Shown in pieces: positions 15,032 to 31,179 of a stretch of 64,000 nt of DNA. Position numbers and translations under genes: made by a program. A model generated the notes under the pieces. It worked only from the letters and a program-made list of their open reading frames with translations. It was not told the origin of the DNA and did not search any database. The DNA is from Haloplanus natans DSM 17983 (GTDB lineage Archaea > Halobacteriota > Halobacteria > Halobacteriales > Haloferacaceae). The stretch lies in the NCBI RefSeq assembly GCF_000427685.1, contig NZ_KE386573.1, positions 2,650,938 to 2,714,937 of the forward strand, given 5' to 3'. Position 1 is the first letter of the stretch. Every line of letters starts with the position of its first letter.

Positions 15032-15808
15032 TCATGCGTCGTCGTGGAGCGACCCACGCACCCGCGCGACCTGTCGGCCGAACGCCTCCGAACCGAACAC
15101 CGACTCGTCGCGGGGACGGGGGAGATCGATGTCGAACTCGCCGACGATCCGGCCCGGCGTGCCGTTGCCGGCGACGGACCCATCGGCCGTGCCGGCGCCG
15201 GAGACGACGAGACAGCGGTCGCCCAGGAAGACCGCTTCGGGCACGCTGTGGGTGACGAAGACGACAGTCTTGCGGTTCTCGCGCCACAGGCGGAGAATCT
15301 CGACGCTCATCTCGTCGCGGGTGATCTCGTCGAGTTCGCCGAAGGGTTCGTCCATGAGCAACACGTCGGCGCCGAGGTGGATGGCGCGTGCGATGGCGAC
15401 GCGCTGTTTCATGCCACCGGAGAGTTCGGCGGGACGGGTGTCCTCGAAGCCGTCGAGGCCGGTCGTCGCCAGCAGGTCGCGGGCGCCCTCGGGGTCGGGC
15501 TCTTTCCCCGCCATTCGGCGGAGGAAGGTGACGTTCTCGAGGGCCGTCTTCCAGGGGAGGAGGGTGTGATCCTGAAAGACGAAGCCGAGGCGGGCGTCCG
15601 ACTGGGCGGCTTCAGGGGGGTCGCCGTCGACCCTGACGTGACCGTCCGTCGGCGACTCCAGCCCACCGATGGTACGCAACAGCGTGGTCTTGCCACAGCC
15701 CGAGGGGCCGACGACGGTGACGAACTCGCCGTCGGCGATGTCGATGGACACGTCGTCGAGGGCGCGGAGGTCGCCGTAAGTAACGGACAGGTTCTCGACG
15801 GAGATCAT
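15032..15808 (-). CDS. ABC transporter ATP-binding protein (SsuB/TauB type)
   Basis: The 258-aa ATPase contains Walker A GPSGCGKTT (34-42), signature LSGGMKQR, Walker B VLLMDEP and the switch His in FVTHS. The family energises nitrate/sulfonate/pyrimidine-type importers. It starts by an ATGA overlap with the upstream regulator-receptor gene. It is the only ATPase in the locus, although there are two permeases. Confidence 0.88.
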   Translation of the reverse strand: MISVENLSVTYGDLRALDDVSIDIADGEFVTVVGPSGCGKTTLLRTIGGLESPTDGHVRVDGDPPEAAQSDARLGFVFQDHTLLPWKTALENVTFLRRMAGKEPDPEGARDLLATTGLDGFEDTRPAELSGGMKQRVAIARAIHLGADVLLMDEPFGELDEITRDEMSVEILRLWRENRKTVVFVTHSVPEAVFLGDRCLVVSGAGTADGSVAGNGTPGRIVGEFDIDLPRPRDESVFGSEAFGRQVARVRGSLHDDA

Positions 15809-17085
15809 GGGTTGAGAGTCGCGGCCTGTTCGAGGGCGACACGGAGCCGTTCCCACGTCTCCGGCGAGTGCCACCCCCAGCCGTTCTTCTCGACGGCGTC
15901 CCCGCCTGCGAACCGGTCGAGCGCACCGTCGAGCTTTCGGCGCTCGTCGGCGACGACGACATCGGCGTCGGCGTGGCCGGCGAGGGCGTCGATCGCGGCA
16001 TCCGGGTCGGCCCGGGCCACCGACCAGCCGGCCATCGCCCCTTCGAGAAAGCCTCGAAGCGCCTCGGGGCGCTCGCGAAGCGTCTCCCGACGAACGACGA
16101 ACGCGGGGCCGGGGACGGGGAAGTGATCGGCGAGCAACACGGAGTCGACATCGTGGCCGGCGGCCTCCAGTTCGAGCGGGTCGGTGAAGACGCCGGTGGC
16201 CACGTCCGCGTCGCCACCGAGCAACGCCTCGCGCTCCTCGCCGTTCGCGCGGACGGTGATCACGTCGTCGACGACGCCGGCCTGAGCGAGAAAGAGACGG
16301 CCGAGCGCACCGGTTTCGGAGCCGGCCGGCATGGCGACGCGGCGGCCACGGACGTCCTCGACGCTCCGGAGTGGGCCACCGAAGGCCGATCGGGTCGTAT
16401 AGAGAGTGACTATCGCGCGCTGGTAGTACAGGGCAAGTGGGACGACATCGACGGTATCCCGCGCGCGGAGAAACGTCGCTGCGCCGGTGAGACCGACGTC
16501 GACGTCGCCGTCGGCCACAGCCGAGAGGGCGGCACTGGAGCCGCGACGGCCGGTGAGGGTCACGTCGACGCCGTAGTCGGCGTAGGTACCGGCAAACAGC
16601 GGGGCGTGGAGCCCGTTCGGCTCCCAGTTCAGGCCAACTGCGACACGACCGGCGTCGCGGGTTCGGGGATCGGAGCCCGCCCCGCCGAGGGAGAGACCGT
16701 CCTCGAACGCGGAGGCGACGGTGGCCGCCTGATCGAGCAGCGACTGTGAGTGGAGGGCGCGAACGCGGGTGAGGGTCCGGTCACGGCCGGCGTCGGCGCG
16801 CCACCCCTTTGGCGGCCGGCCGGGGGCCTCGCTGTCCACGGTCGTCTCGACGACGAGACCCAGATCCGTGAGCGTTCCCAACACGTCGGAGACACGGCCA
16901 CGGCCCAGGTCGACGCCGACGCGAACGGCGAGACGCGACGCCGCCTCGCCGGAGAAGCGACCGGACTCCTCGCGGCCGACGAGGTAGGCGAGGACGCGTG
17001 CTGCCTCGCGGTCGAGGCCCGTGGCGAACGCCTCGACCGTCGGCGCGTCCTCGTCGCCGAGGATGGGAAACTCTCGAACTCGCAC
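15805..17085 (-). CDS. Winged-helix domain fused to ThiY/NMT1-like ligand-binding domain
   Basis: This 426-aa protein has no signal peptide. Residues about 25-100 form a winged helix (VLAYLVGREESGRFSGEAA..., wing ending GRPPKGW), followed by a probable helical linker (103-130) and a periplasmic-binding-protein fold from about 147, starting VGLNWEPNGLHAPLF, homologous to the lipoprotein receptor at 12299. I infer a cytosolic one-component regulator that senses the imported ligand. It heads the operon with the ATPase and permease. GTG start at 17085; a TATA box (rc of atatataaac, about 17108-17117) is 26-30 nt upstream, so the message is probably leaderless. Alternative: a cytosolic receptor with an accessory domain. 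Confidence 0.8.
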   Translation of the reverse strand: MRVREFPILGDEDAPTVEAFATGLDREAARVLAYLVGREESGRFSGEAASRLAVRVGVDLGRGRVSDVLGTLTDLGLVVETTVDSEAPGRPPKGWRADAGRDRTLTRVRALHSQSLLDQAATVASAFEDGLSLGGAGSDPRTRDAGRVAVGLNWEPNGLHAPLFAGTYADYGVDVTLTGRRGSSAALSAVADGDVDVGLTGAATFLRARDTVDVVPLALYYQRAIVTLYTTRSAFGGPLRSVEDVRGRRVAMPAGSETGALGRLFLAQAGVVDDVITVRANGEEREALLGGDADVATGVFTDPLELEAAGHDVDSVLLADHFPVPGPAFVVRRETLRERPEALRGFLEGAMAGWSVARADPDAAIDALAGHADADVVVADERRKLDGALDRFAGGDAVEKNGWGWHSPETWERLRVALEQAATLNP

Positions 17086-17226
17086 GTCCTCCCCTTGGCA
17101 TTGCAGGATATATAAACTGCGGGCGGGCCGTGGCGATACGTTGGCAATTGCACACGTACGGGCGTGCGTGGGAGTGCCTGACGTAAATTCACCAGTTTTA
17201 AGAGATACAAACCGAAGTTCGTGCCG

Positions 17227-17760
<534 letters not shown>

Positions 17761-17925: not shown

Positions 17926-18846
17926 ATGTCGCAATATGTAAACGACGGAATGCCCGAGATCGGCCGGGAGGATCGTCGACAGTTCCTCAAGGTCGTCGGG
18001 CTCACCGGCGCAGTGGCAGCAGGCAGCGAGTTCACCCTGAGCGACCTCAGGGGCGAAGTAGAAGGGGAGACGGCGGGGGAACTCGCCGCGATGGGCGAAG
18101 CGATCCGCTCGGACCTCGTCGGCACGCTCGACGCTGGTCTGCTCGGTAGCGAGCTCGCTTCCCTCGAAGGCCAGATCGAACGCCTCCCCGAACTGCGGGC
18201 GATGGGTGTTCCGGCCGAGGACAGCACGGAGTATCAGACACTCGCCGAGCCCGGTTGGGCGATCCACGAACATCTCGTCGAAGTCGGCTTCTTCGGGAGC
18301 GTCGAGGAGCACCTGCCGGAGTTCACCCCCGAGCATATCGGGGCGACGGCGCGCGAGTTCATCAACACGGCGGCGCTCGCGTCCGCGCTCGTCGAACTCG
18401 GCTACACCGAAGAAGAACTGACGTCGACGGTCGTCAACGTCGTCAACAACAAGGAACGCCTGGCAATGTGGGTGCCGACGAAGAACATCCCGGCCGGCGT
18501 CGAAGGGTTCGACCCCGAGAACATCGCCCCGCTCCACCAGCGAGCGTCGGCCGGTGTTCTGCTGTGGACGGACTACCTCGACACGTACCTCTGGCAGAAC
18601 GAGGTACTCCTGACCGAGACGATCCTCGACAACAACTACGGCGACCTCAAGCAGATGTACGCCGGCCTGCACCTGCTCGCGAGCGCGGCCGAAGACCTCG
18701 CGGGTTCGCAGGAACTCAGCGATGCGCAGCTCACGGCTGCGCTGTCCGCCGGCGCGGCGATGATGATCGTCGGACAGGAAGATCTGACGAACGACGTGAT
18801 GCGCATCACGGACGAAATGCGCGCCCCGCGCACGGGAGGTGCGTAA
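17926..18846 (+). CDS. Tat-signal protein of unknown family, partner of PQQ dehydrogenase
   Basis: I do not recognise the family of this 306-aa protein. It begins with a twin-arginine motif (EDRRQFLKVVG, Arg17-Arg18) and a short hydrophobic core, followed by a mostly helical, acidic body without membrane segments or cysteines. The PQQ dehydrogenase gene follows after 3 nt, so the two are one translational unit. Since the dehydrogenase has no signal peptide, this protein may carry it through the Tat pore as a folded complex, as the Tat-signal small subunits of some GMC dehydrogenases do. That is inference. A GGAG about 9 nt before the ATG is a possible ribosome site. Confidence 0.75.
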   Translation: MSQYVNDGMPEIGREDRRQFLKVVGLTGAVAAGSEFTLSDLRGEVEGETAGELAAMGEAIRSDLVGTLDAGLLGSELASLEGQIERLPELRAMGVPAEDSTEYQTLAEPGWAIHEHLVEVGFFGSVEEHLPEFTPEHIGATAREFINTAALASALVELGYTEEELTSTVVNVVNNKERLAMWVPTKNIPAGVEGFDPENIAPLHQRASAGVLLWTDYLDTYLWQNEVLLTETILDNNYGDLKQMYAGLHLLASAAEDLAGSQELSDAQLTAALSAGAAMMIVGQEDLTNDVMRITDEMRAPRTGGA

Positions 18847-18849
18847 CGC

Positions 18850-20577
18850 ATGGCTAGCATTCACCAGCACGACGCAGCGGTAGAGGCGGCACAGAAGATC
18901 GAGATGGTGGAAGTCGAGGACGGGTACACGCTGACCAACGTCCCCGAGCAGTCCATCACCCAGCAGTTCGACATCGAGCAGATCCCCCAGCAGGACGTTA
19001 CCCAGCAGATGCGGGAGGAGTCCGCGGTCGAGGACCCCACGTCCTGGCTGATGTACGGTGGGAACTACCAGCAGCAGCGTCACACCTCCGCCGACGTCAT
19101 CACGAAGGACAACGTCGGGGACCTCGAACTCGAGTACCTGGTCCAGACCGGAGTCGCCTCCAGCATGGAGGGCGTGCCGATCGTCGTGCCCGGCGACCCG
19201 CCGGTCATGTACCAGACGAACGGGCCGAACCACGCGAAAGCGATCAACGCCCGCACCGGTGAGACGCTCTGGAGCTACACGTACGCGAACCCGCAGGGGC
19301 TGCTTCTCTGCTGTGACGCGAACAACCGCGGCTTCGCCGTTCACGGCGACAAGGTCTACATGACCACCCTCGACTCCGGGATCGTGGCGCTCAACCGCTA
19401 CACCGGCGAAGAGGAGTGGTACACCTCGACCGGCGACCACGAGATCGGCTACTCCGCGACCTGGGCGCCCAACGTTCACGATGGCAAGGTCATCACCGGT
19501 TCCGCCGGTGGCGAGTACGGTGTCAGCGGGTTCGTCGCCGCCCTCGACCCCGAGAGTGGGGAAGAGATCTGGCGAACGAACACGACGCCCGCCGAGGAAT
19601 GGGCGGGCGACTCCCACGAACACGGTGCCGGTACCGTGTGGATGACGCCGACGATCGACCCCGAAAGCGGCATGATCCACGCCCCGGTCGGCAACCCCGG
19701 TCCGGACTTCGACGGTACGGTCCGTCCGGGTCCGAACCGCTACACCATCGGGACGCTGACCCTCAGCGCCGACGACGGCTCCATCCAGTGGCACTACGGC
19801 GAGTCGCCCCACGACGTGTGGGACTACGACTCCTCGGCGCCCAAGATCCGTGTCAACGACATGGAGATGGACGGCGAGACGCGAGACGTCGTCATCAGCC
19901 CCGGCAAGACGGCCTGGGTCTACACGATGGACGCCAACAACGGGCGTCTGCTCGAGCGGTCCCAGGAGACGACCCAGCACATCAACATGTGGAAGATGGT
20001 CCCGCACGTCGACGAGGACCGTCGCGTGGCCTTCGTGCCCGGTGCGCAGGGTGGGAACGACTGGCAGCCGCCGTCGTACAACCCCGAGACTGGCCTGGTC
20101 TATCTCAACCAGCACAACGCACCACACGAGATTTTCTGGGAAGAGGCGCAGTACGAGGCCGGCCAGACCTACTGGGGCGGCGGCCTGAACGACTGGCCCG
20201 ACGTCACCAATCCGGAAGGCTGGAACGGCAACATCAGCGCCATCGTGGCCGTCGATCCGGTCACCGGCGAACGTGTCTGGCGCGAGTGGATCTCCGGCGA
20301 GGAGACCAGCGACTACCTCTGGGGCGGGTCGATCACGACCGCGACCGGACTCACCTTCCTGGGGACCCAGAAGGGTAACATCGTCGCCTACGACGGCGAG
20401 AACGGTGACCGACTCTGGCAGTTCCAGCTCGGTGCGCCGATCTGCTCGTCGCTCTCTAGCTGGTACGACCCCGGCGAGGGCAAGCAGTACGTCGCCGTGC
20501 AGGTCGGCGGCTCCGGCTGGCTCCACGGAGGTCGCCGTGGCTCCACCGTCGCCGTCTTCGGCCTCAGCGAGAACTAA
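18850..20577 (+). CDS. PQQ-dependent alcohol dehydrogenase, lanthanide-type metal site
   Basis: The 575-aa protein is an eight-bladed quinoprotein of the methanol/ethanol dehydrogenase family. Visible family marks: vicinal Cys154-Cys155 (LLLCCDANNRG), Glu222 in GGEYGVSG, Asn282 in VGNPGPDFDGT, catalytic Asp325 and Asp327 in HDVWDYDSS. Glu-Asn-Asp plus the extra Asp two residues on is the set used by XoxF/ExaF-type enzymes to hold a lanthanide; calcium MxaF enzymes have Ala there. No signal peptide is present: the N-terminus is acidic and Gln-rich (TNVPEQSITQQFDIEQIPQQ). PQQ enzymes act outside the membrane, so export with the Tat partner upstream is likely. No cytochrome c domain; copper proteins flank it on both sides. 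No PQQ biosynthesis gene is in the window. Confidence 0.87.
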   Translation: MASIHQHDAAVEAAQKIEMVEVEDGYTLTNVPEQSITQQFDIEQIPQQDVTQQMREESAVEDPTSWLMYGGNYQQQRHTSADVITKDNVGDLELEYLVQTGVASSMEGVPIVVPGDPPVMYQTNGPNHAKAINARTGETLWSYTYANPQGLLLCCDANNRGFAVHGDKVYMTTLDSGIVALNRYTGEEEWYTSTGDHEIGYSATWAPNVHDGKVITGSAGGEYGVSGFVAALDPESGEEIWRTNTTPAEEWAGDSHEHGAGTVWMTPTIDPESGMIHAPVGNPGPDFDGTVRPGPNRYTIGTLTLSADDGSIQWHYGESPHDVWDYDSSAPKIRVNDMEMDGETRDVVISPGKTAWVYTMDANNGRLLERSQETTQHINMWKMVPHVDEDRRVAFVPGAQGGNDWQPPSYNPETGLVYLNQHNAPHEIFWEEAQYEAGQTYWGGGLNDWPDVTNPEGWNGNISAIVAVDPVTGERVWREWISGEETSDYLWGGSITTATGLTFLGTQKGNIVAYDGENGDRLWQFQLGAPICSSLSSWYDPGEGKQYVAVQVGGSGWLHGGRRGSTVAVFGLSEN

Positions 20578-20697: not shown

Positions 20698-21336
20698 ATG
20701 GCGACGCGAAGAACATTCCTGATCGGTGCTGCGGCAGCGACGACCGGACTGGCTGGCGCCGTGGGATCGGCGTCCGCACAGGCCCAGACCTTCGAACTCG
20801 AACTGACGGAGCAAGGCTTCGTCGGGCGTTCACCCTCCGGCATCTCCGGGACGACGAACCCGACCCTGGAGATGGAGGCAGGCAACGAGTACACCATCAG
20901 CGCCACCTTCAGCTACTACCCCGAGACGGAGGGGCTGCCGGCACGGCACAACCTCGCCCTGCGGACGGAGAGCGGGACACCCTTCCGGAGCAACTACGTC
21001 TTCCCACAGGACAACGATCCGGAGAGCCCGTCGACATCCCAGAGTATCTCGACCACTGTCGAGGCGACATCCAACATGACGGCGTACCTCTGTGAGGAAC
21101 ACATGGGCGAAGGCGGTGACATCTCCGTCTCCGGCGGCGCGACGGCGACACCGGAGCCGACGCCGACCGAGAGCGACATGGACGGCGGCGCCACGGCGAC
21201 GCCGACCGAGAGCGGCGGCGGCGACGGCGGTGGAGAGACTTCGGGCGGCGGCCCCGGCTTCGGTGTCGGTGCGGCCGTGACGGCCCTCGGTGCAGCGACC
21301 TACGGCGCCCTCCGCAAGCGCGACAGCGACGAGTAA
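20698..21336 (+). CDS. Cupredoxin-like surface protein with PGF-CTERM anchor
   Basis: The 212-aa protein starts with a Tat-type signal (TRRTFLIGAAAA) and ends with a Thr/Pro/Gly-rich linker, PGF at 186-188, a hydrophobic segment and RKR, which is the archaeosortase PGF-CTERM anchor. The body is beta-rich, with His84, Cys132, His135 and Met136 in ARHN and YLCEEHM; this resembles a blue-copper site but Met directly follows His, unlike halocyanin. Copper binding is plausible, not proven. It has its own TATA (ttttattta, about 20667-20675) and leaderless start, 120 nt after the PQQ dehydrogenase. Confidence 0.72.
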   Translation: MATRRTFLIGAAAATTGLAGAVGSASAQAQTFELELTEQGFVGRSPSGISGTTNPTLEMEAGNEYTISATFSYYPETEGLPARHNLALRTESGTPFRSNYVFPQDNDPESPSTSQSISTTVEATSNMTAYLCEEHMGEGGDISVSGGATATPEPTPTESDMDGGATATPTESGGGDGGGETSGGGPGFGVGAAVTALGAATYGALRKRDSDE

Positions 21337-21391: not shown

Positions 21392-22162
21392 ATGCGTAAC
21401 GAACTCATCGCCGTCGGCGATCGCCTACGGCGTCCGGAGTACACGGGCGAGAACCGCTGTTTCCCGTGTACCGTCGTGAACCTCTGTCTCACTCTCGTCG
21501 CCGCCGCCGTCGTCTCGGTGGTCCTCACACCGCTCGGCGGGCTGTTCGTCCTCACGGGCGGCCTGGGCGCCATCTACTTTCGTGGCTATCTCGTTCCCGG
21601 GACGCCCGAACTCACCGTCCGGTACTTCCCTCCCTGGCTGCTCGAACTGTTCGGGAAGGAGGGAGAACTCCGCGAGACGCTCCACCCGGTCGAAGGAGTC
21701 GCCGTCCGGGCGACGCCCGAAGGCGGCCGTCTCGTCGCGGGGTTCGCGTCGGCGTGGGACGACCGGATCGAGTCGCTGCGTGCCGCGGGCGTGGCCGACG
21801 ACGACGTGGCGACGCTGCTCGGCGTCGACGGGGCGTCGAGCGTCCCCGGTGACGTGGCGTACGTCGTCGACGGCGGCCTCAGGCAGTGGCTCTCCGAATC
21901 CGCGCTCCTGGCCGATGCCGCCGCCGCGGCGGTGTTGGCCGAGCGTGGCGGCGAGTCGTGGGCGTCGCTCGACGCCGACGGGCGGGTGGCGACGCTCCGT
22001 GATCTGCGCAAACTCCTCGACTACTGCCCGCTGTGTGGCGGTGACCTCGACAACGAAGAGACCGAAACCGTAGAAACCTGCTGTACCGAATCCGAACGGG
22101 TGTTGATGGCGACGTGTGTCGACTGCGACGTGCGGTTGATCGAGGATCTGGACGACCGCTAG
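21392..22162 (+). CDS. Small membrane protein with N-terminal helices and C-terminal cysteine cluster, function unknown
   Basis: The 256-aa protein has Cys23, Cys26 and Cys32 just before two membrane segments (about 30-65), a long acidic cytosolic region, and a C-terminal zinc-ribbon-like set (CPLC, then CC, then C-x2-C). I know no function for this haloarchaeal family. Start ATG 21392; the longer frame from 21290 is inside the preceding gene. Its stop overlaps the stop of the convergent molybdoenzyme in a shared CTAG. Confidence 0.65.
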   Translation: MRNELIAVGDRLRRPEYTGENRCFPCTVVNLCLTLVAAAVVSVVLTPLGGLFVLTGGLGAIYFRGYLVPGTPELTVRYFPPWLLELFGKEGELRETLHPVEGVAVRATPEGGRLVAGFASAWDDRIESLRAAGVADDDVATLLGVDGASSVPGDVAYVVDGGLRQWLSESALLADAAAAAVLAERGGESWASLDADGRVATLRDLRKLLDYCPLCGGDLDNEETETVETCCTESERVLMATCVDCDVRLIEDLDDR

Positions 22163-24291
22163 TCGTCGGCGGGCGCGTCCGCGTCGGCGGCGTCCGTATC
22201 GACGGCGACCTCGATTTTGGCCGCGGCGGCCTTGTACTCCGGAATCTTCGCACGCTCGTCGAGCACGTCGTTGGTGAGACGGTTCCCCGCCGAGTCGGCG
22301 AAATGCGGCGTCGTCCACACCGTTCCCTCCTTGATGTCCTCGGTGACCTGCGCTTTCACCCTGATCTCGCCGCGACGGGATTTGAGCATCACGTAGTCGC
22401 CGTCCTCGATCCCGTACGTCTCGGCGTCGTTCGGGTGGACGTCGACGAAGTTCTCGGGTTCGACGCGGGTGAGCGTCGCGGACCGACGGCTCATCGTCCC
22501 CGTGTTGTAATGTTCGATGATCCGACCCGTGGTGAGAATGAGCGGGTACTCCTCGTCGGGCACCTCCTTGGGCGGCTGGTGACGAACGCCCTCGATCTGT
22601 CCGCGGCCACTCTCGGTGGTGAATCCGTCCTCGTAGAGGTACGGGTCACCCTCGTCGCCGGGTTCGTAGCAGGGCCAGTGAACGCCCTCCTCGCCGAGGA
22701 CATCGTAGGTCATGCCGTGGAAGATGGGCGCGACCTGGCGGAGTTCCTCGAACACGTCCTCGGGGCCCTCGAAGTCGAAGCTGCCGTCGCCGAACAGGCG
22801 GTTGCCCACGTCACAGAGGATCTCGAGGTCGTCTTTCGTGTTCGGATACACCTTCTCGACGCCGCGCATCCGCTGGGTGCGGCGGTCGGTGTTGACGACG
22901 GTGCCGTCGCGTTCGGCCCACGAGGTGGCGGGCAGGACCACGTCGGCGTACTCGGCGGTTTCGGTCGGGAAGACGTCCTGAACCACCATGAAGTCCAACT
23001 CCTCCATCCGTTTTTCGACTTGGTTGGTGTCGGGTTCGCTCATCACGGGGTTCTCGCCCATGATGTAGAGGCCGTGGATGGTGTCACCGATCTCGTGGGA
23101 CACTTCGACGTTCGTCAGACCGGGTTCGGACGGAATCTCGAAGTTCCAGACCTCCTCGACGTCCGCGCGGACCTCGGGGTCGGACACGTCACGGTAGCCG
23201 GGGAGGACGTTCGGCATCGCGCCCACGTCGGAGGCACCCTGAACGTTGTTCTGGCCGCGAAGCGGGTTGACGCCCGTGCCGGGACGGCCGAGGTTCCCCG
23301 TGATCAAGGCGAGGTTGATCTCGTTTTGCACGTTGTCGACGCCGCAGGTGTGCTGGCTCATCCCCATGCCGGTGAAGATGGCAGCGTTGTTCGCCTTGGC
23401 GTACTTCTCGGCGGCGAGTTCGATGTCTTCGAGGGGGACGCCACACTCCTCGGCGGCCGCCTCCTTGTCGAAGTCCTCCAAGGTCTCTTCGAGGTGCTCG
23501 AAGCCCTCGGTGCGCTCCGCGACGAACTCCTCGTCGACCCAGTCGTTCTCCAGAACCGTCTTGATGACGACGTTGAGAAGCGGGATGTCGGTGCCCGGTT
23601 CGAGCTGGAGATGCATGTGGCGGTCGGTCTCGGTGACTTCGAACGACTGCGTCGTCTTGTTGGCGTGGGGATCGACCTGGATGACGGTCGCCCCCTCGAG
23701 GACGGCCTGCCGGAAGTACTGGCTGTTGGCGATGGGGTGTTGTTCGCCGGGGTTGGCGCCCTGAATCCAGAACACGTCGGCGGCATCCTCCAAGTCCTCC
23801 ATGCTGTTGGTCATGGCGCCCTCGCCGAGGCTGTTCTTGAGCGCGTACACCGTCGAGGCGTGGCACATCCGCGTGCAGGTGTCGACGCTGTTGGTACCGT
23901 AGCGCCGGGCGAGCTTCTGGATGAGGTAGTTCTCTTCGTTCATGGCCTTCGAACAGCCATAGAAGCCCATCGCCTGCGCGCTGTACTCGTCGCGGATACC
24001 CTCCATCTCGTCGATGATCCGGTCGTAGGCCTCCTCCCACGTCGCCTCGTGGAGTTCGCCGTCGTCGCCGCGGATCAGCGGGTCGGTCAACCGCTCGTCG
24101 TGGTTGACCGACTGCGTCGCCGCGCCGCCCTTGATACAGATGCTCCCCTCGTTGACCGGCGCGTCCGCCCACGGTCGGAAGGTTACCTCACCGTCCTCGT
24201 CCTGTGAAATCTGGATGCCGCACCCGACTCCACAGTACGGGCAGATGGTTTTGGTCGGCCCGTCGGATTCGCCGCTGGATTCGGATGACAT
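22159..24291 (-). CDS. fdhA: Formate dehydrogenase-like molybdopterin oxidoreductase, alpha subunit
   Basis: The 710-aa protein has an N-terminal [4Fe-4S] site (Cys17, Cys20, Cys24, Cys52), the molybdenum ligand Cys143 followed by His144 (position of selenocysteine-His in E. coli FdhF), and a C-terminal molydopterin-dinucleotide binding domain (TTGRIIEHYNTGTM). No signal peptide, so cytosolic. Length and motifs match single-subunit-like FdhF/FdhA proteins. No beta or membrane subunit is adjacent, so the electron acceptor is unknown (ferredoxin is possible). With the upstream PQQ dehydrogenase it could complete oxidation of C1 units; substrate formate is inferred from family. Confidence 0.82.
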   Translation of the reverse strand: MSSESSGESDGPTKTICPYCGVGCGIQISQDEDGEVTFRPWADAPVNEGSICIKGGAATQSVNHDERLTDPLIRGDDGELHEATWEEAYDRIIDEMEGIRDEYSAQAMGFYGCSKAMNEENYLIQKLARRYGTNSVDTCTRMCHASTVYALKNSLGEGAMTNSMEDLEDAADVFWIQGANPGEQHPIANSQYFRQAVLEGATVIQVDPHANKTTQSFEVTETDRHMHLQLEPGTDIPLLNVVIKTVLENDWVDEEFVAERTEGFEHLEETLEDFDKEAAAEECGVPLEDIELAAEKYAKANNAAIFTGMGMSQHTCGVDNVQNEINLALITGNLGRPGTGVNPLRGQNNVQGASDVGAMPNVLPGYRDVSDPEVRADVEEVWNFEIPSEPGLTNVEVSHEIGDTIHGLYIMGENPVMSEPDTNQVEKRMEELDFMVVQDVFPTETAEYADVVLPATSWAERDGTVVNTDRRTQRMRGVEKVYPNTKDDLEILCDVGNRLFGDGSFDFEGPEDVFEELRQVAPIFHGMTYDVLGEEGVHWPCYEPGDEGDPYLYEDGFTTESGRGQIEGVRHQPPKEVPDEEYPLILTTGRIIEHYNTGTMSRRSATLTRVEPENFVDVHPNDAETYGIEDGDYVMLKSRRGEIRVKAQVTEDIKEGTVWTTPHFADSAGNRLTNDVLDERAKIPEYKAAAAKIEVAVDTDAADADAPADD

Positions 24292-24433: not shown

Positions 24434-25030
24434 ATGACCAGTTACAGCGAACGGCCAGACGGGGGAAACGAAACCACAATCCACCTCACCCGCGAACGGA
24501 TCGACGACCTCGCAGCCGAGTACGGACAGCGCGAGCCGTTCGATTTGGTCGAACGCGAACACGTCGAGACCGTCCCGCGCACGTTCACGTCGGAGGACTT
24601 CGGCCGCCGCGACGCGGAGTGGCCGGTCCAGTGGTATCACCGCCGTGAGCTCCGGTCCGACCCCGAGCGACGCGACGCGGAGGAACGCTTCCTCGACAAC
24701 GACTACGAGGCGATGGTCGACGCCATCCACGGGGCCATCGAAGCGACGACGCTCGACCGAAAACTCGACGCCTTGACCACGCTGGTCGGTGTCGACGTGC
24801 CCGTCGCCTCCGCGTTCCTGGCGTTTACGCATCCGGACGACTACGTCGCCGTCGGACGGCGGGAGTGGGAGGCCCTGCGCGCGGCCGACGAACTGGCCGA
24901 CCCGTATCCCGACACCGTCACACCCGCCGCGTACCGGACCTACGTCGAGGCGGTCCGCACCGTCGCGGACCGGACCGACCGTGACGTGTGGACGGTGTAT
25001 CGGGCGCTGTGGCGCCTCGGCACCGACTAG
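24434..25030 (+). CDS. Conserved haloarchaeal protein, function unknown
   Basis: The 198-aa acidic, soluble protein has no signal, membrane segment or motif that I recognise. The central part (TLVGVDVPVASAFLAFTHPD) has a helix-hairpin-helix-like look, suggestive of nucleic-acid or protein binding only. Start ATG 24434 follows a short intergenic region divergent from fdhA. The stop overlaps the stop of the convergent binding-protein-like gene in a CTAG. Confidence 0.6.
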   Translation: MTSYSERPDGGNETTIHLTRERIDDLAAEYGQREPFDLVEREHVETVPRTFTSEDFGRRDAEWPVQWYHRRELRSDPERRDAEERFLDNDYEAMVDAIHGAIEATTLDRKLDALTTLVGVDVPVASAFLAFTHPDDYVAVGRREWEALRAADELADPYPDTVTPAAYRTYVEAVRTVADRTDRDVWTVYRALWRLGTD

Positions 25031-25995
25031 CGGCCGATCCGATCGGCGTAGTTCGCGATCACCGGTTCGGCGTCGTCGACGTACTCGTTCGTCCACGCGT
25101 CGTCGGGGTCGACCGGCGACTCCAACAGGTCCGTCTCGGCGAGCATCTCGGCCAGGTTCTCCCAGCGCCCGCCGTCGAAGTGACCCCACCCCGCCTCGCG
25201 GACGAACTCGGTGAACTGGAGGTCCTCCGCCGAGGCGAGGAACTTCATCCGCTCCACCTCGCGGTTGTGTTCGAGTTGGGCGTTGCGGGCGATCAGCGCG
25301 TCGATGGCGCGGTCGGGCTCGTTCGTTGCCAGCTCCCATCCGCGAGCGGTCGCCCGCAGGAACGATCGGATCGTCTCGGAGTTGTCGGCCGCGAACTCGG
25401 GGTTGGTGACGACCGTCATCCCGTAGACGTCGAGGTAGTTCCCGATGAGGAGTTCGTCGGCCACCCGGTCGTACTCGCGTTCGAGCTCCTTCCCGTTCGT
25501 GACGACGCCCACCGCGGCGTCGACGTCGCCGTCGAGCAACTGGTGTTCGACGCGATGGTGGGTGTGTTTCTGCACGTCGTTGACCTCGACCTCGTCGCGG
25601 ATACCTCGATCCTCCAGCAGTTGCAGGGTGAGGATACGGGTCTTGGTCGCCGACGGCCCGACGACGCGTCCGCGAAGCTGTTCGGGCTCGGTGAACGGTT
25701 CGCTGAAGGCGTCACGGAGGGTGTAGACCGTCGCAGGCGTCTTCTGGCTGACCGCGGCGACGGCCAACGGGTCGAGTCCCTGGCTCCGCACCGAGAGGAC
25801 GGCGCTCCCACCGGAGAGGCCGAGGTCGCTCCGACCTTTCGCGGTCTGTTCGGCGGCGAAGGGCGAGCCGTGGCCCTCGACGAACTCGACCTTCAAGCCC
25901 TCGTCGGCGTAGAAGCCCGCCTCGCGTGCGAGGAAGTACGGTGCCTGGAAGCCGTTCGGTTCCCAGTTCAACTGAAAGGTGACGGTTTCCGTCAT
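25027..25995 (-). CDS. ThiY/NMT1-like binding-domain protein without signal peptide
   Basis: The 322-aa protein is a full NMT1/THI5-type fold beginning at residue 1 (VTFQLNWEPNGFQAPYFLAREAGFY) and homologous to the receptor at 12299 and the receptor half of the regulator at 15805. There is no signal peptide, lipobox or membrane segment, so it should stay in the cytosol. No permease or ATPase is adjacent. It starts by an ATGA overlap with the upstream binding-protein-like gene. Possible roles: cytosolic ligand carrier or sensor, or an enzyme evolved from a receptor, as with yeast THI5; none is proven. Confidence 0.78.
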   Translation of the reverse strand: MTETVTFQLNWEPNGFQAPYFLAREAGFYADEGLKVEFVEGHGSPFAAEQTAKGRSDLGLSGGSAVLSVRSQGLDPLAVAAVSQKTPATVYTLRDAFSEPFTEPEQLRGRVVGPSATKTRILTLQLLEDRGIRDEVEVNDVQKHTHHRVEHQLLDGDVDAAVGVVTNGKELEREYDRVADELLIGNYLDVYGMTVVTNPEFAADNSETIRSFLRATARGWELATNEPDRAIDALIARNAQLEHNREVERMKFLASAEDLQFTEFVREAGWGHFDGGRWENLAEMLAETDLLESPVDPDDAWTNEYVDDAEPVIANYADRIGR

Positions 25996-26984
25996 GGATC
26001 GACCTCGAAGGTCCCGTCGGGGATCTCGTCGACGCCGAGCGCCTCGGCGCCGGCGACGGCTTTGAGATGATCGAACAGTCGGTACATCCCGTCGACGCTC
26101 TCGGCGTCCCAGTCGCGGACGACCATCTCCCGCCAGCCGTCACGCACCGCACACGTTACGTCGGGGTCGTCGTAGGTCATCAGCTTCTCGCTGATCTCCG
26201 TCCAGATGTCGTCGTCTTCGACGAGTTTGTCGACCGCGTCGCGGTACGCGTCCGCGAACGCCCGCACCGTCTCGGTCTGCTCGTCCAGATACTCCCCGCT
26301 CGTGAGGAAGGCGGCGATTGGGAGTTTGTTGTCCGTCTCGGAGAGGCGCTGGACCAACTCGGCGACGGGCAGGACGTTCTCGTAGGGGCCCGTCTCCGTA
26401 ATCTCGGGGATGATCTGCCAGAACTGGAAGCCGGCATCGACGTCGCCCTCGCGAATCATGCGCGTGAGTTCGACCTTCGACCCGGCTTCGACCGGCGTCG
26501 CCGTCTCGTCCGGGTCGAAGTCGTGATACTCCCGGCAGGCCGCCCGCGTCAGAATCCAGTTCTTGTCGAGTCGACGGACGACGCCGATGCGCTTGCCCGA
26601 CAGGTCGGTCAGGCCGTCGATGTCCGAATCCTCGGGGGCGACGAGGCCGCCCACGGTCCGGCCGTACGGGTGGAAGGCGACGATGTCCGCCCCCTCGGCG
26701 CGTTCGCGGGCGATGGAGATGTAGTCGATGTCGATCAGGTCGGCGTGACCCTCCTGCAACTGGGCTTCGACCGTCTCGATGCCGTCCTCCAGGGCGTCGG
26801 AGACGAGTTGTACGTCGAGATGGAAGCCGTGGTCCCGGTCGAAGCCGAAGCGCTTGATGGTGTAGAGCAGGTACCGGGGGCTTCCGTTGTGTTCGAACCG
26901 GGCGCGCATGGTCGGCAGGTCGCCCGGGTCGTCGTGATACCCGTCGAGGGCGGCCTGCTGTGTGTCGACGTGGTCCCGACTCAT
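25992..26984 (-). CDS. Periplasmic-binding-protein-like cytosolic protein (paralogue B')
   Basis: The 330-aa protein has the two-lobed binding-protein layout (DLIDIDYISIARERAEGADI; KRIGVVRRLDKNWILTRAA) and no signal peptide. It is a close paralogue of the gene at 27162, with long blocks of shared sequence. Its ATG overlaps the stop of a 38-codon leader ORF (ATGA) and its stop overlaps the start of the next binding-domain gene, so three frames are translationally chained. Ligand and role unknown. Confidence 0.75.
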   Translation of the reverse strand: MSRDHVDTQQAALDGYHDDPGDLPTMRARFEHNGSPRYLLYTIKRFGFDRDHGFHLDVQLVSDALEDGIETVEAQLQEGHADLIDIDYISIARERAEGADIVAFHPYGRTVGGLVAPEDSDIDGLTDLSGKRIGVVRRLDKNWILTRAACREYHDFDPDETATPVEAGSKVELTRMIREGDVDAGFQFWQIIPEITETGPYENVLPVAELVQRLSETDNKLPIAAFLTSGEYLDEQTETVRAFADAYRDAVDKLVEDDDIWTEISEKLMTYDDPDVTCAVRDGWREMVVRDWDAESVDGMYRLFDHLKAVAGAEALGVDEIPDGTFEVDP

Positions 26985-27097
26985 CGGCCCACGGGAGCAA
27001 ATGCGGTCGTCCGTCGCGTCGACTCGGGGCCGTCACGTCCGGCGTCGCTCTCGGAGGGTGTCCGACAGCGCGCCACGATGGTCTCGTCGGTCGGCAT
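26981..27097 (-). CDS. Putative 38-aa leader ORF
   Basis: A small ORF starts at ATG 27097 (MPTDETIVARCRTPSESD) and ends in an ATGA overlap with the binding-protein-like gene at 26984. A TATA-like ttttat (rc, 27122-27128) lies 26-30 nt upstream of this ATG, while no TATA is seen at the right distance from 26984, so transcription and translation probably begin here. No family recognised; it may be a coupling leader rather than a functional peptide. Confidence 0.45.
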   Translation of the reverse strand: MPTDETIVARCRTPSESDAGRDGPESTRRTTAFAPVGR

Positions 27098-27120
27098 ACC
27101 CGCAGGGTACGACTGTACCC

Positions 27121-27141
27121 TGATAAAAGTTCCTTGGAAAC
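27121..27141 (-). promoter_or_regulatory. TATA box plus TTCCnnGGAA palindrome
   Basis: Reading the minus strand, GTTTCCAAGGAAC (27129-27141) directly precedes CTTTTATC (TATA). The palindrome sits in the BRE/activator position. The same AGGAAnTTTTAT arrangement occurs upstream of the gene starting at 29051, suggesting common control of the two transcription units. Confidence 0.5.
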
Positions 27142-27161
27142 GTTCAAATGATAGCCGAGAT

Positions 27162-28154
27162 TCACGCGTCCGGTCGGAGCGTCCCGTCCGGAATCTCGTC
27201 GACGCCGAGCGCCTCGGTACCGGCGACGGACTGCAGGTGGTCGAAGAGGCGATACATCCCGTCGACGCGCGCCTCGTCCCAGTCGCGGACGACCATCTCC
27301 CGCCAGCCGTCACGCACCGCGCGCACCACCGTCGGGTCGTCGGTTCGCATCAGGCGCTCGCCGATCTCCACCCAGAGGTCGTCGTCGGTCAGGAGGCGGT
27401 CGGCCCCGTCCCGGGCGGCCGCTCGGAAGCCACGCACTGCCTCGGGGTGGGCGTCGAGATACGACTCGCCGGTGAGGAAGGTGGCGATGGGGAGTTCGTC
27501 GTCGGTGCCGGCGAGTCGCTGGACCAGCGCGGAGACGGGGAACACCTCGACGTAGGGCCCGGTGCGGGTGAGTTCGGGTACGAGCGGCCAGAACTGGAAG
27601 CCGGCGTCGACGTCGCCCTCGCGAATCATGCGCGTGAGACCGTCACGCGAGTCGGCCTCGACGAGTGTGACCGTCTCCGCCGGGTCGAAATCGTGATACT
27701 CCCGGCAGGCCGCCCGCGTCAGAATCCAGTTCTTGTCGAGACGGCGGGTGACGCCGATACGCGTGCCCGGGAGGTCCGATAGGCCGTCGATGTCCGAATC
27801 CTCGGGGGCGACGAGGCCGCCCACGGTCCGGCCGTACGGGTGGACGGCGACGATGTCCGCCCCCTCGGCACGCTCGCGGGCGACGGAGATGTAGTCGGTG
27901 TCGACGAGGTCGGTCCCGCCCCCGTCGAGTCGGTGGCGAATCGTCTCCATGCCACTTTCGAGTTCGTCGGTGACGAGGCGCACGTCGAGGTGGACGCCGT
28001 GGTCGTGGTCGAAGCCGAAGCACTTGATGGCGTAGAGGAGATACCGGGGGCTCCCGTTGTGTTCGAACCGGGCGCGCATGGTCGGCAGGTCACCCGGGTC
28101 GCCGTGGTACGCGTCGAACGCGGCCTGCTGTGTGTCGACGTGGTCCCGGTTCAT
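27162..28154 (-). CDS. Periplasmic-binding-protein-like cytosolic protein (paralogue B)
   Basis: The 330-aa protein is the duplicate of the one at 25992; the N-termini differ at only a few residues (RDHVDTQQAAFDAYHGDPG versus the other copy's RDHVDTQQAALDGYHDDPG). No signal peptide. Its ATG directly follows the stop of the binding-protein-like gene at 28155, so the two form one operon. Ligand unknown. Divergence is scattered, so both copies look intact and under selection. Confidence 0.75.
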   Translation of the reverse strand: MNRDHVDTQQAAFDAYHGDPGDLPTMRARFEHNGSPRYLLYAIKCFGFDHDHGVHLDVRLVTDELESGMETIRHRLDGGGTDLVDTDYISVARERAEGADIVAVHPYGRTVGGLVAPEDSDIDGLSDLPGTRIGVTRRLDKNWILTRAACREYHDFDPAETVTLVEADSRDGLTRMIREGDVDAGFQFWPLVPELTRTGPYVEVFPVSALVQRLAGTDDELPIATFLTGESYLDAHPEAVRGFRAAARDGADRLLTDDDLWVEIGERLMRTDDPTVVRAVRDGWREMVVRDWDEARVDGMYRLFDHLQSVAGTEALGVDEIPDGTLRPDA

Positions 28155-29051
28155 TCACCGCAGCGGCGACACGATGGCGTCGATGTCGGCGTCGTCGTCG
28201 ATCAACTGCCGCCGTTTCATCCAGTCGAGGTGGTAGTCGAGGTCCTCGCGGTCCGCGAGTTCGGGCACCTCGTACTCGGGCACCTCGATGGAGTCGCGGA
28301 CGGCGTCGACGTCCACGTCGTCGAAGAGGTCCGGGGCGACTTCCTCGTCCTTCCAGAGCATGTCGAGATACTGGTCGCGGTAGGCGTCGGGGTCGGCGTT
28401 GATTTCCTCGACTGCGCGGCGGTACGCACGCATGAACGCGTCGAGCGTCTCGCCTTCCAGCGCCTCCGCGCCGACGACGCCCATGTGGTTCTCGAACTCC
28501 AACACCTTCTCGAAGCCGAGGTGTTCGGCGAGCGTGATGTGGGGGTCGAGGAGCGTGACGGCGTCCACGTCGCCGTCGCGGAGGGCGCGAAGTCGGTCGG
28601 TCGGCATCCCGTGGCCCTCGATGACCACCTCGTCTTCGTCCATGTGCTCCTCGAGGGCGCGAATCGCCGTGTACTCCTGTCCGGTGCGTCGGTTGACGCC
28701 GACGGGGACGTTCGCCAGGTCGGCCGGCCCCTCGATGCCCGAGTCGGGGCGCACGAACACCGCGTACGGCTGGTCCGCGAACGTCCCCTTGGCGACGATG
28801 CGGCCGTCGTCGAACTCCCACGTCCGCTTCAGGCTCTCCCACTTGCAGATGGGGTAGAGGTCCACGTCGTTGTCGCCGGTGAGCGTCTCCTCGGCCGGGA
28901 TGTACTTGTTCGTCACACAGGTCCGGTCGCGCTCGACCAGGTCGACATCGAGCCCCTCGTCGGCGAAGTAACCACGTTCCGCCGCGATGCGCTGCGGGAG
29001 CATGAACGAGAACGGCAGGTGAAACACCGTGATCGCCTTGGATGCTGACAT
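28155..29051 (-). CDS. Periplasmic-binding-protein-like cytosolic protein (A)
   Basis: The 298-aa protein begins at residue 1 with the NMT1-type lobe (AITVFHLPFSFMLPQRIAAERGYFADEG) and has no signal peptide. A Cys-containing segment DRTCVTNKYIPAEE and YPICKWESL distinguishes it from its neighbours. It heads the operon with paralogue B. A TATA box (rc, about 29076-29083) sits about 28 nt upstream of the ATG, so the transcript is leaderless. Ligand unknown. Confidence 0.75.
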   Translation of the reverse strand: MSASKAITVFHLPFSFMLPQRIAAERGYFADEGLDVDLVERDRTCVTNKYIPAEETLTGDNDVDLYPICKWESLKRTWEFDDGRIVAKGTFADQPYAVFVRPDSGIEGPADLANVPVGVNRRTGQEYTAIRALEEHMDEDEVVIEGHGMPTDRLRALRDGDVDAVTLLDPHITLAEHLGFEKVLEFENHMGVVGAEALEGETLDAFMRAYRRAVEEINADPDAYRDQYLDMLWKDEEVAPDLFDDVDVDAVRDSIEVPEYEVPELADREDLDYHLDWMKRRQLIDDDADIDAIVSPLR

Positions 29052-29122: not shown

Positions 29123-29479
29123 ATGTGGGGACATCGAATGAGGCGGATCAACGACGAACGAGCGGACGGCAAGGAGGTCGCAGACGGCGTGTATCTCGCT
29201 GACCTCGCGGCCGGCGAGCAAGCGTCGATGAAACACTGGCGAGTCGAACCGGGAGCCACACTCCCCGTCCACCGGCACGACAACGAACAGATCGGATACA
29301 TGATTCGGGGGACTCTGACGGCGATCACCGAAGACGAGGAGATCACGCTCCGACCGGGCGACTCGTATCTGTTCACCGCGAACGAACTCCACGGCGCGGA
29401 GAACCGCGGCGACGAACCCGCGGTCGGCATCGGCGTCCTCTCGCCGCCTCGTTCGGACCCGGACTGGAAACAGTCGTAG
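29123..29479 (+). CDS. Cupin-domain protein
   Basis: The 118-aa protein is a single small cupin: motif 1 LPVHRHDNEQIGYMIRG and motif 2 PGDSYLFTANELHGAEN keep the metal-binding His/Glu/His pattern. Such stand-alone cupins act as small-molecule sensors, isomerases or dioxygenases; no reaction can be assigned. ATG 29123 fits the upstream A/T box; ATG 29138 is an alternative. It is divergent from the binding-protein operon and shares its regulatory palindrome. Confidence 0.75.
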   Translation: MWGHRMRRINDERADGKEVADGVYLADLAAGEQASMKHWRVEPGATLPVHRHDNEQIGYMIRGTLTAITEDEEITLRPGDSYLFTANELHGAENRGDEPAVGIGVLSPPRSDPDWKQS

Positions 29480-29504: not shown

Positions 29505-29956
29505 TCACCCGGACCCGGCGAGCCGGTCACATCGCGTGACCGGCACCGTTCCGTCCTCGTTCCAGCCGCGCCGGTCGTAGTACGCGTCGAGCGCCGCCGC
29601 GAGCCCGTCGAGCGCGTACGGGAGCGCGTCGTCGTCACCGCGGTCACGACCCCGACGGTCGTTGAAGCCACGCTCCAAGTCGACGCCGCCGTCCCGAACG
29701 TGGACGGCGAGGCGGTCGTCGCTCGCGCCCGTAATCTCGACCGCCGAGTGGTCCGTGCCGACGAAGTTGCCCGCGGCGAAAATCAGTCGCTTCGTCGACC
29801 CGAGCGGGTCGGCGTCGAAGGAAATGCGCTCGTAGGCCAGTCGGGTGCCGAGTCCCCGACCGCCGACGAACGTCCCGCGGCGTCCCGAGCGTCCTCGGCG
29901 TGCCACTGGCGCGCACTACCGTCGACGGAGAGCAAGGGACCGTGCACGTGTCGCAT
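29505..29956 (-). pseudogene. Aldehyde ferredoxin oxidoreductase remnant
   Basis: Two frames together encode an AOR N-terminus: MRHVHGPLLSVD from ATG 29956, then, after a one-base shift near 29880, TFVGGRGLGTRLAYERIS...DPLGSTKRLIFAAGNFVGT. Shortly after (AVEITGASDDRLAVHVRDGG) the sequence jumps to a typical AOR C-terminus (DDALPYALDGL...YYDRRGWNEDG). AORs are about 550-620 aa, so some 450 residues including the cluster and tungsten ligands are gone. The gene is dead by both frameshift and internal deletion. No intact copy is in the window. Confidence 0.78.
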
Positions 29957-30023
29957 CGCCCCGACGAAGGGAGGCGGGCCACACGAGGAAAACCTATATC
30001 CGGAGCGCCTCGCCAGTAGAGGC

Positions 30024-30455
30024 ATGGACGCCGTCGACCACATCAACATCGACGTGGACGACCTAGACGCCGCGTACGAGTTCTACCGGGACGTACTCGG
30101 CCTCGACCTGTTGCGCCCACCGGAGGATTTCCAGGGCGCTCACGTCATGTTCGAAACCGACGCCGGGACGGTCGTGACGCTCATGGAGACGGGGCGAGCC
30201 GAGAAGTGGGACGACGAGGGGCTGGCACATCCCCTCGATAAGGCCCACGTCGCCTTCGAAACCGACCGCGACACCTACCAGTCGCTGATGGACCGTCTGG
30301 AGGGTCAGTTCCCGAAACAGGGCCCCTACGACTGGGGGACGTTCGAGGGCTTTTATTTCCTCGATCCCTCGGGGAACTTGCTCGAAATCATCACCTACGA
30401 CCCCGCGCCCGCGGATCGACCACGGTCGCTCATGGATCACGACGACGTGGAGTGA
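30024..30455 (+). CDS. VOC (glyoxalase/bleomycin resistance) family protein
   Basis: The 143-aa protein has two beta-alpha-beta-beta-beta modules, beginning VDHINIDVDDLDAAYEFYRDVLGLDLL and ending FYFLDPSGNLLEII with the metal-site-type Glu. Specific reaction unknown. A TATA (cctatat, about 29994-30000) places the ATG at 30024 as a leaderless start. Confidence 0.82.
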   Translation: MDAVDHINIDVDDLDAAYEFYRDVLGLDLLRPPEDFQGAHVMFETDAGTVVTLMETGRAEKWDDEGLAHPLDKAHVAFETDRDTYQSLMDRLEGQFPKQGPYDWGTFEGFYFLDPSGNLLEIITYDPAPADRPRSLMDHDDVE

Positions 30456-30471: not shown

Positions 30472-31179
30472 TCAGTCGGCCGGGGCGGGGGCGTTCCCCA
30501 TGTCGGTCGTCACCACGTCGGTGAAGACACGACGCCGGGCGTAGAAGAAGTAGACGTACGGCACCTTCGCCAACACGTCGAGGAAGGCGTACGTGAGGCT
30601 GACGCCGACGAAGCCGGCGAACCCGAGGCCCGCGGGCCCCATCAGCCAGACGAACGGGTAGGCGATCCAGAGGAGTGCGATGTGGTTTTTGAGCAGGCTG
30701 AACAGGCCGCGCTGCATCGGCGCGTCGGGGGCCCTCCGCGGGAACACGACGTACAAGAACCCGAACAGGGAGAGATGCGCAAGCACCGAGACGCCGAAAA
30801 GCGACCACTTGAGCAACCCGCCGGTGGCTACCGCACCGGCGCCGGCGGCGATCATCAACGCGTCCGCCAGCATGATCCCGGCGATCGCTCGACGCGAGGC
30901 ACCGGCGACGTAGCCGATGTATCCGACGAGCAGCGGCGTCGTCACGATCCAGTCGACGTACCGGAAGCCGACGAGCGTCGTCCCACCGAACTCGACGGTA
31001 CCGATACCGAGCGCCATCGCGACGTACGAGAGGCCGGCGAAGCCGGGAATGATCATGAGTCCGGCGAGCGGGCCCTGATGATCCGAGCCCTCGAGGGAGA
31101 CGTACAGTATCGCGGCTACACCGGTGCCGACGAGGAAGGCGGCGGCAGCCAGGGCGTACGCGATCGTGACGGGGTCCAT
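30472..31179 (-). CDS. sopI: Sensory rhodopsin I
   Basis: The 235-aa seven-helix opsin matches sensory rhodopsin I: Asp76 counter-ion in RYVDWIVTTP, Tyr87 at the proton-donor position of bacteriorhodopsin (Asp96), the SRI-type His166 in KNHIALLW, and retinal Lys205 in FLDVLAKVPYVYFFYARRR. These numbers coincide with Halobacterium SRI. It lacks the Thr next to the retinal Lys that SRII uses (Ala204 here), which further supports SRI. It senses orange light (attractant) and near-UV (repellent) through HtrI. The ATG overlaps the htrI stop by one base, the same order as in Halobacterium. Confidence 0.93.
   Translation of the reverse strand: MDPVTIAYALAAAAFLVGTGVAAILYVSLEGSDHQGPLAGLMIIPGFAGLSYVAMALGIGTVEFGGTTLVGFRYVDWIVTTPLLVGYIGYVAGASRRAIAGIMLADALMIAAGAGAVATGGLLKWSLFGVSVLAHLSLFGFLYVVFPRRAPDAPMQRGLFSLLKNHIALLWIAYPFVWLMGPAGLGFAGFVGVSLTYAFLDVLAKVPYVYFFYARRRVFTDVVTTDMGNAPAPAD

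Follow-up and report, generated by a model that had tools for sequence, protein, structure and literature searches.

Within the window, the whole stretch of 64,000 nucleotides of Haloplanus natans DSM 17983 DNA that was analysed, an uninterrupted open reading frame at positions 18850-20577 (+ strand) encodes a PQQ-type alcohol dehydrogenase of 575 aa, with an ATG start and no signal peptide. Its match to PF01011 (E 3e-53) places it in the PQQ beta-propeller superfamily, and the conserved PQQ-contact residues and the fold likewise fit a PQQ dehydrogenase. The profile of methanol/ethanol PQQ dehydrogenases (TIGR03075) was matched over nearly its full length at 387.8 bits, below the curated cut-off of 480.05. 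A phmmer search against the PDB returned PedH as the top match and XoxF second. The same two enzymes were retrieved with an AlphaFold2 model based on the protein of the window together with 22 relatives from haloarchaea (pLDDT 84, pTM 0.89), the best structural match being PedH (6zcw; Z 44.6, rmsd 2.0 Å, 505 residues, 33% identity) and the second XoxF (Z 42.5). A hydrophobic N-terminus was absent from all 23 haloarchaeal dehydrogenases checked but present in most bacterial relatives, except for a group of actinobacterial-type enzymes that are signal-less too. The viral contigs searched gave no match.

Directly upstream, stopping 3 bases ahead of the dehydrogenase start, lies a gene (17926-18846, + strand) for a 306-aa protein, hereafter the partner. 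In Haloplanus its N-terminus is DRRQFLKVVGLTGAVAAG, a Tat-like signal found in all Haloplanus copies. The partner family directly precedes 97 of 98 haloarchaeal dehydrogenase homologues (94 distinct dehydrogenases and 3 with an N-terminal extension) and none of 52 bacterial homologues, counts that, like those of the neighbours below, come from related sequences and are not phylogenetically independent. The only haloarchaeal homologue without it is on a short MAG contig (L127). No known family or fold could be recognised in this obligate partner. Pfam searches with 36 members (E <= 1) gave only TAT_signal and scattered weak single matches, including one to FAD-SLDH at E 0.08, and detected no family of the Gluconate_2-dh3 type; NCBIfam gave no informative match, and profile searches of the PDB gave none up to E 10. 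The structure model is all-helical (pLDDT 92), and its best hits were at E 0.15 with Foldseek and at Z 7.1 with VIA-align, the latter to unrelated helical bundles and within the noise for helical proteins. A Tat-like motif is carried by 12 of the 36 aligned partners, and 11 of the 36 match TAT_signal weakly. In gluconate/fructose dehydrogenase, a small Tat-bearing subunit is thought to export the signal-less catalytic subunit, a flavoprotein. The 306-aa partner would be analogous to such small subunits, but no sequence match to them was detectable with Pfam.

The pair is flanked by genes for two copper proteins, both candidate electron acceptors: a halocyanin/plastocyanin-family blue-copper lipoprotein (17221-17760, + strand; PF00127, 8.5e-17) and a cupredoxin-like protein (20698-21336, + strand) with a Tat-like start, an HN...CxxH motif and a PGF-CTERM anchor. 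The HN...CxxH copper motifs are conserved downstream of the pairs, and no CxxCH was found in proteins neighbouring the dehydrogenase. At the Natrialbaceae loci inspected, the partner lacks the Tat motif, and it is the downstream cupredoxin that starts in a Tat-like manner (SRRGVLKG); its copper motif is YYCxPHPxxM. We surveyed the 85 pairs with sufficient flanking sequence, counting cupredoxins within 3.5 kb and other families within 5 kb. The pairs fall into two ARRANGEMENTS without overlap, cupredoxin versus ferredoxin/CDC48 (p = 1e-21, a value that overstates independence, the sequences being related). A cupredoxin neighbour with neither ferredoxin nor CDC48 was found for 47 pairs, a Fer-type 2Fe-2S ferredoxin and/or CDC48-family ATPase without cupredoxin for 29, and none of these for the remaining 9. 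A Tat-like partner was never found beside ferredoxin/CDC48 (0/28). The H. natans genome holds one pair of each kind: that of the window is of the cupredoxin kind, and the pair of a paralogue 57% identical to the window dehydrogenase (G000:C7:775443-777143) adjoins CDC48, with no ferredoxin found within 5 kb. Such a split is consistent with, but does not prove, the existence of one form that is exported and coupled to copper and another that is cytosolic and coupled to ferredoxin. The CDC48-family AAA ATPase gene adjoining ferredoxin-type pairs is usually divergent (L043:7849-10056 and similar); it is reminiscent of the MoxR ATPase found in bacterial methanol dehydrogenase clusters.

The metal and cofactor site was aligned with XoxF (6dam), PedH (6zcw), MxaF (1lrw) and QH-ADH (1yiq). 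Glu222, Asn282 and Asp325 align with the three ligands common to these enzymes, and Asp327 with the lanthanide Asp, a position held by Asp in both XoxF and PedH but by Ala in MxaF and Thr in QH-ADH. The vicinal Cys154-Cys155 align with the disulfide cysteines of XoxF/MxaF. An earlier note on this DNA had named the same four ligands and the cysteine pair and had proposed alignment with XoxF, ExaF and MxaF as the check; all four residues do fall on lanthanide ligands, Asp327 included, and the cysteines on those of known enzymes. Its statement that calcium enzymes have Ala at the last position is true of MxaF but not of QH-ADH (Thr), nor of the ExaA/PedE-type calcium enzymes, which have Ser/Thr at this last ligand position (PMC11845868). 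Across 46 distinct haloarchaeal homologues of the main clade, none of the 17 PQQ/metal-site residues examined varies, against 162 of 575 columns invariant overall (hypergeometric p = 2e-10 for the excess at the site). Relative to XoxF, Lys353 replaces Arg and Asp404 replaces Asn, both as in QH-ADH, Ala219 replaces Ser, and Pro285, three residues past the metal Asn, is shared with PedH and MxaF in the place of a Thr (SolV Thr259). Every one of these departures has a precedent among the characterised PQQ enzymes aligned; the roles of residues such as position 285 were taken from PMC11845868. With the full set of ligands and the cysteine pair both confirmed, a lanthanide-type site is well supported by sequence, and we infer from it that the enzyme may use a lanthanide.

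No haloarchaeal homologue departs from Asp at position 327. An artefact of the acidic proteome was ruled out, since Asp is also kept in nearly all non-halophilic bacterial relatives examined. This constancy bears on the alternative of a calcium-dependent PQQ enzyme in which Asp327 is inherited and not used for a lanthanide, as does Gly221, the residue preceding the metal Glu, which is of the XoxF/PedH type and not the Ala of MxaF. With PedH as the nearest structure, we consider a calcium enzyme unlikely, even though Lys353 and Asp404 recall the pocket of the calcium enzyme QH-ADH, 19 of the 85 pairs have genes of the Na+/Ca2+-exchanger family within 5 kb, and Asp327 persists in a subclade where other ligands are lost. 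In this deepest haloarchaeal subclade (L070-L078), DYD is kept, Cys-Cys is lost and the metal Glu is mostly degraded, so DYD alone is no proof of lanthanide use.

All of the 33 haloarchaeal sequences sampled for a FastTree phylogeny formed one clade (support 1.0) outside the XoxF, MxaF, PedH and QH-ADH branches. The bacterial neighbours nearest to it were weakly resolved (support 0.64-0.86), and PedH grouped with Phaeobacter and Novosphingobium homologues, apart from the haloarchaeal clade. The XoxF/ExaF framing of the earlier note needs correction in view of this separate clade and of a mixed pocket (Lys353, Asp404, Pro285); the dehydrogenase belongs to a haloarchaeal clade of its own within a known superfamily, and its lanthanide-type site is real and conserved. 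The family is carried by 69 of the 391 haloarchaeal species whose genomes were searched, including members of Natrialba, Natrinema, Natronococcus, Halorubrum, Halomarina, Halalkalicoccus, Halogranum and Haladaptatus. PQQ dehydrogenases had already been reported in heterotrophic marine Thaumarchaeota, some with DYD and all without Cys-Cys (PMC7300363). The extension of the family to archaea that the earlier note envisaged is thus not the first with DYD. A literature search that did not extend to the principal survey of rare-earth alcohol dehydrogenases (PMC6775964) returned nothing linking haloarchaea to PQQ-dependent or lanthanide enzymes, and the sole haloarchaeal mention found was incidental.

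The earlier remark that no PQQ biosynthesis genes are in the window holds well beyond it: pqqC (TIGR02111) was detected in none of 391 haloarchaeal genomes, H. natans included, and pqqE (TIGR02109) at E 1e-60 in none of the 391 either, these two genes representing the pathway in the haloarchaeal search. In the positive controls, the pqqC search passed its cut-off for 9 of 14 bacterial genomes in which relatives occur, and pqqE was recovered in 8 of 8. H. natans does have pqqE-like matches, the best at 96.6 bits against a cut-off of 381; we attributed them to generic radical-SAM similarity because matches below the cut-off occur in 14/14 control genomes too. An "empty" quinoprotein binding no PQQ, since haloarchaea cannot make it, would account for the missing genes and for a weak match to the acido-empty-quinoprotein profile TIGR04528 (285.6 bits, curated cut-off 650). 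We regard this as very improbable: the site residues would not be expected to be invariant throughout the main clade, and blue-copper or ferredoxin neighbours imply redox chemistry. A bound cofactor scavenged from other microbes is the probable solution, although archaea are not known to have a PQQ importer.

Genes for NMT1-like proteins surround the pair. A substrate-binding-type protein of NMT1/THI5-like sequence is encoded at 15805-17085 (- strand). Further downstream, four consecutive NMT1/THI5-like genes without signal peptide occupy 25027-29051 on the - strand (25027-25995, 322 aa; 25992-26984, 330 aa; 27162-28154, 330 aa; 28155-29051, 298 aa); no gene for an ABC permease or ATPase was recognised in their midst. 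They form an island with a cupin-like protein (29123-29479, + strand, identified by eye) and a VOC-superfamily protein (30006-30455, + strand, start approximate). Across genomes, the island consists of several NMT1-like proteins with a cupin-like and a VOC protein, at times joined by an aldehyde:ferredoxin oxidoreductase. In the window, 29505-29906 (- strand) is a remnant of a gene resembling this oxidoreductase; most of the gene is deleted, as residues 39-137 join directly to 509-554 (numbering of the relative at L212).

Close orthologues of the 298-aa protein were found in 54 of 391 genomes, of which 53 carry the dehydrogenase (p = 7e-50), including genomes in which the two loci are far apart. 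This co-occurrence argues for haloarchaea making the quinone themselves through an unrecognised pathway, perhaps one encoded by the NMT1-like/cupin/VOC island. We nevertheless judge such a pathway decidedly unlikely: 16 dehydrogenase-positive genomes lack a close orthologue, the NMT1-like proteins resemble binding proteins and not Thi5-type enzymes, and the island could equally serve uptake, catabolism or, as XoxJ/MxaJ presumably do, assembly. Identity with Thi5-type enzymes was rejected by eye, the Lys/His of yeast Thi5 having no counterpart at the matching place. In its fullest version, a native route to PQQ or another o-quinone, tied to this island, would serve a lanthanide enzyme in both exported copper and cytosolic ferredoxin forms, which we hold to be improbable.

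The haloarchaeal enzyme was also compared with related known enzymes. It shares with PedH/ExaF (6zcw) the fold, the four metal ligands, Cys-Cys and the Pro three residues after the metal Asn, but differs in its separate clade, in Lys353 and Asp404, in the missing signal peptide, in its obligate 306-aa partner and in having copper-protein neighbours in place of cytochrome c. With XoxF (6dam, 4mae) it has in common the metal ligands, Cys-Cys, the WDYD motif and the fold. XoxF is Sec-exported and works with a c-type cytochrome, whereas the haloarchaeal enzyme, outside the XoxF/MxaF branch and with Pro285 where XoxF has Thr259, has no signal peptide, no XoxG-type cytochrome c and no PQQ genes (pqqC/pqqE). 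The quinoproteins of marine Thaumarchaeota are also archaeal PQQ dehydrogenases, four variants having DYD, and blue copper has been proposed as their possible acceptor; unlike the haloarchaeal enzyme, all lack Cys-Cys, most have signal peptides or membrane spans, and their genomes encode a PQQ synthase (PMC7300363). A group of PQQ dehydrogenases from actinobacteria (L173-L191) resembles the haloarchaeal enzyme in lacking a signal peptide and in having Lys at 353, DYD and Cys-Cys, but pqqC and pqqE are present in the genomes tested, and the protein encoded upstream, of about 155 aa, is unrelated to the 306-aa partner. Some of the loci L173, L175, L178, L183 and L191 have PqqB/C/D-like open reading frames directly downstream, and their enzymes are possibly cytosolic quinoproteins.

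From what was observed directly (the site residues, the fold, the pairing, the neighbour split and the absence of pqqC/pqqE), we lean towards a haloarchaea-specific, two-subunit PQQ-type alcohol dehydrogenase with a lanthanide-type site, Tat-hitchhiker export, blue-copper acceptors, a cytosolic sister form and cofactor uptake. The beta-propeller would bind PQQ or a very close o-quinone together with a metal ion, most likely a light lanthanide, held by Glu222, Asn282, Asp325 and Asp327, with Asp325 as the putative catalytic base and the 306-aa partner as a predicted structural subunit. Because the window partner bears a Tat-like signal, the dehydrogenase is probably carried out of the cytosol as a Tat "hitchhiker", already folded and with its cofactor in place; against such hitchhiking, many partners have no Tat motif and some pairs have a Tat-like signal on the downstream cupredoxin instead. 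Electrons would pass to the adjoining blue-copper proteins, the likely replacements for the cytochrome c of XoxF. The sister form of the pair, without recognisable export signal and beside CDC48 and usually a 2Fe-2S ferredoxin, is probably cytosolic. Both would depend on a cofactor probably taken up from other microbes.

If this reading is true, rare-earth-dependent metabolism reaches about a sixth of haloarchaeal species, and a new subunit comes with a copper/ferredoxin switch of electron acceptor. A pointed question follows as well, namely where the cofactor comes from in an archaeal class where pqqC and pqqE were detected in none of 391 genomes. The most interesting parts, namely the obligate partner, the division into copper and ferredoxin pairs and the missing PQQ pathway, all lie outside the positions given in the earlier note. 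New here are the partner pairing, the neighbour split, the absence of pqqC/pqqE from all 391 genomes although 69 species carry the family, and the co-occurrence with the NMT1-like island.

Other neighbours give clues regarding the substrate. A member of the formate dehydrogenase alpha subunit family (TIGR01591, above cut-off) is encoded at 22159-24291 (- strand), and this family lies within 5 kb of 15 of the 85 pairs. A formaldehyde-dehydrogenase-like zinc enzyme is encoded near other haloarchaeal pairs and has a 64% identical counterpart in Pseudonocardia, next to a PQQ dehydrogenase that lacks a signal peptide. The substrate would be a primary alcohol, and methanol is possible because of these formate-dehydrogenase and formaldehyde-dehydrogenase-like neighbours. 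A membrane protein with three CxxC motifs (21395-22162, + strand, start codon uncertain) belongs to a family with members within 5 kb of 28 of the 85 pairs. At L092:3902-6292, two Na+/Ca2+-exchanger-family genes stand beside a dehydrogenase pair, where they possibly handle calcium or a lanthanide. Finally, a rhodopsin-like membrane protein recognised by eye (30472-31179, - strand) adjoins a methyl-accepting transducer (31179-32765), and the two probably form a sensory rhodopsin pair.
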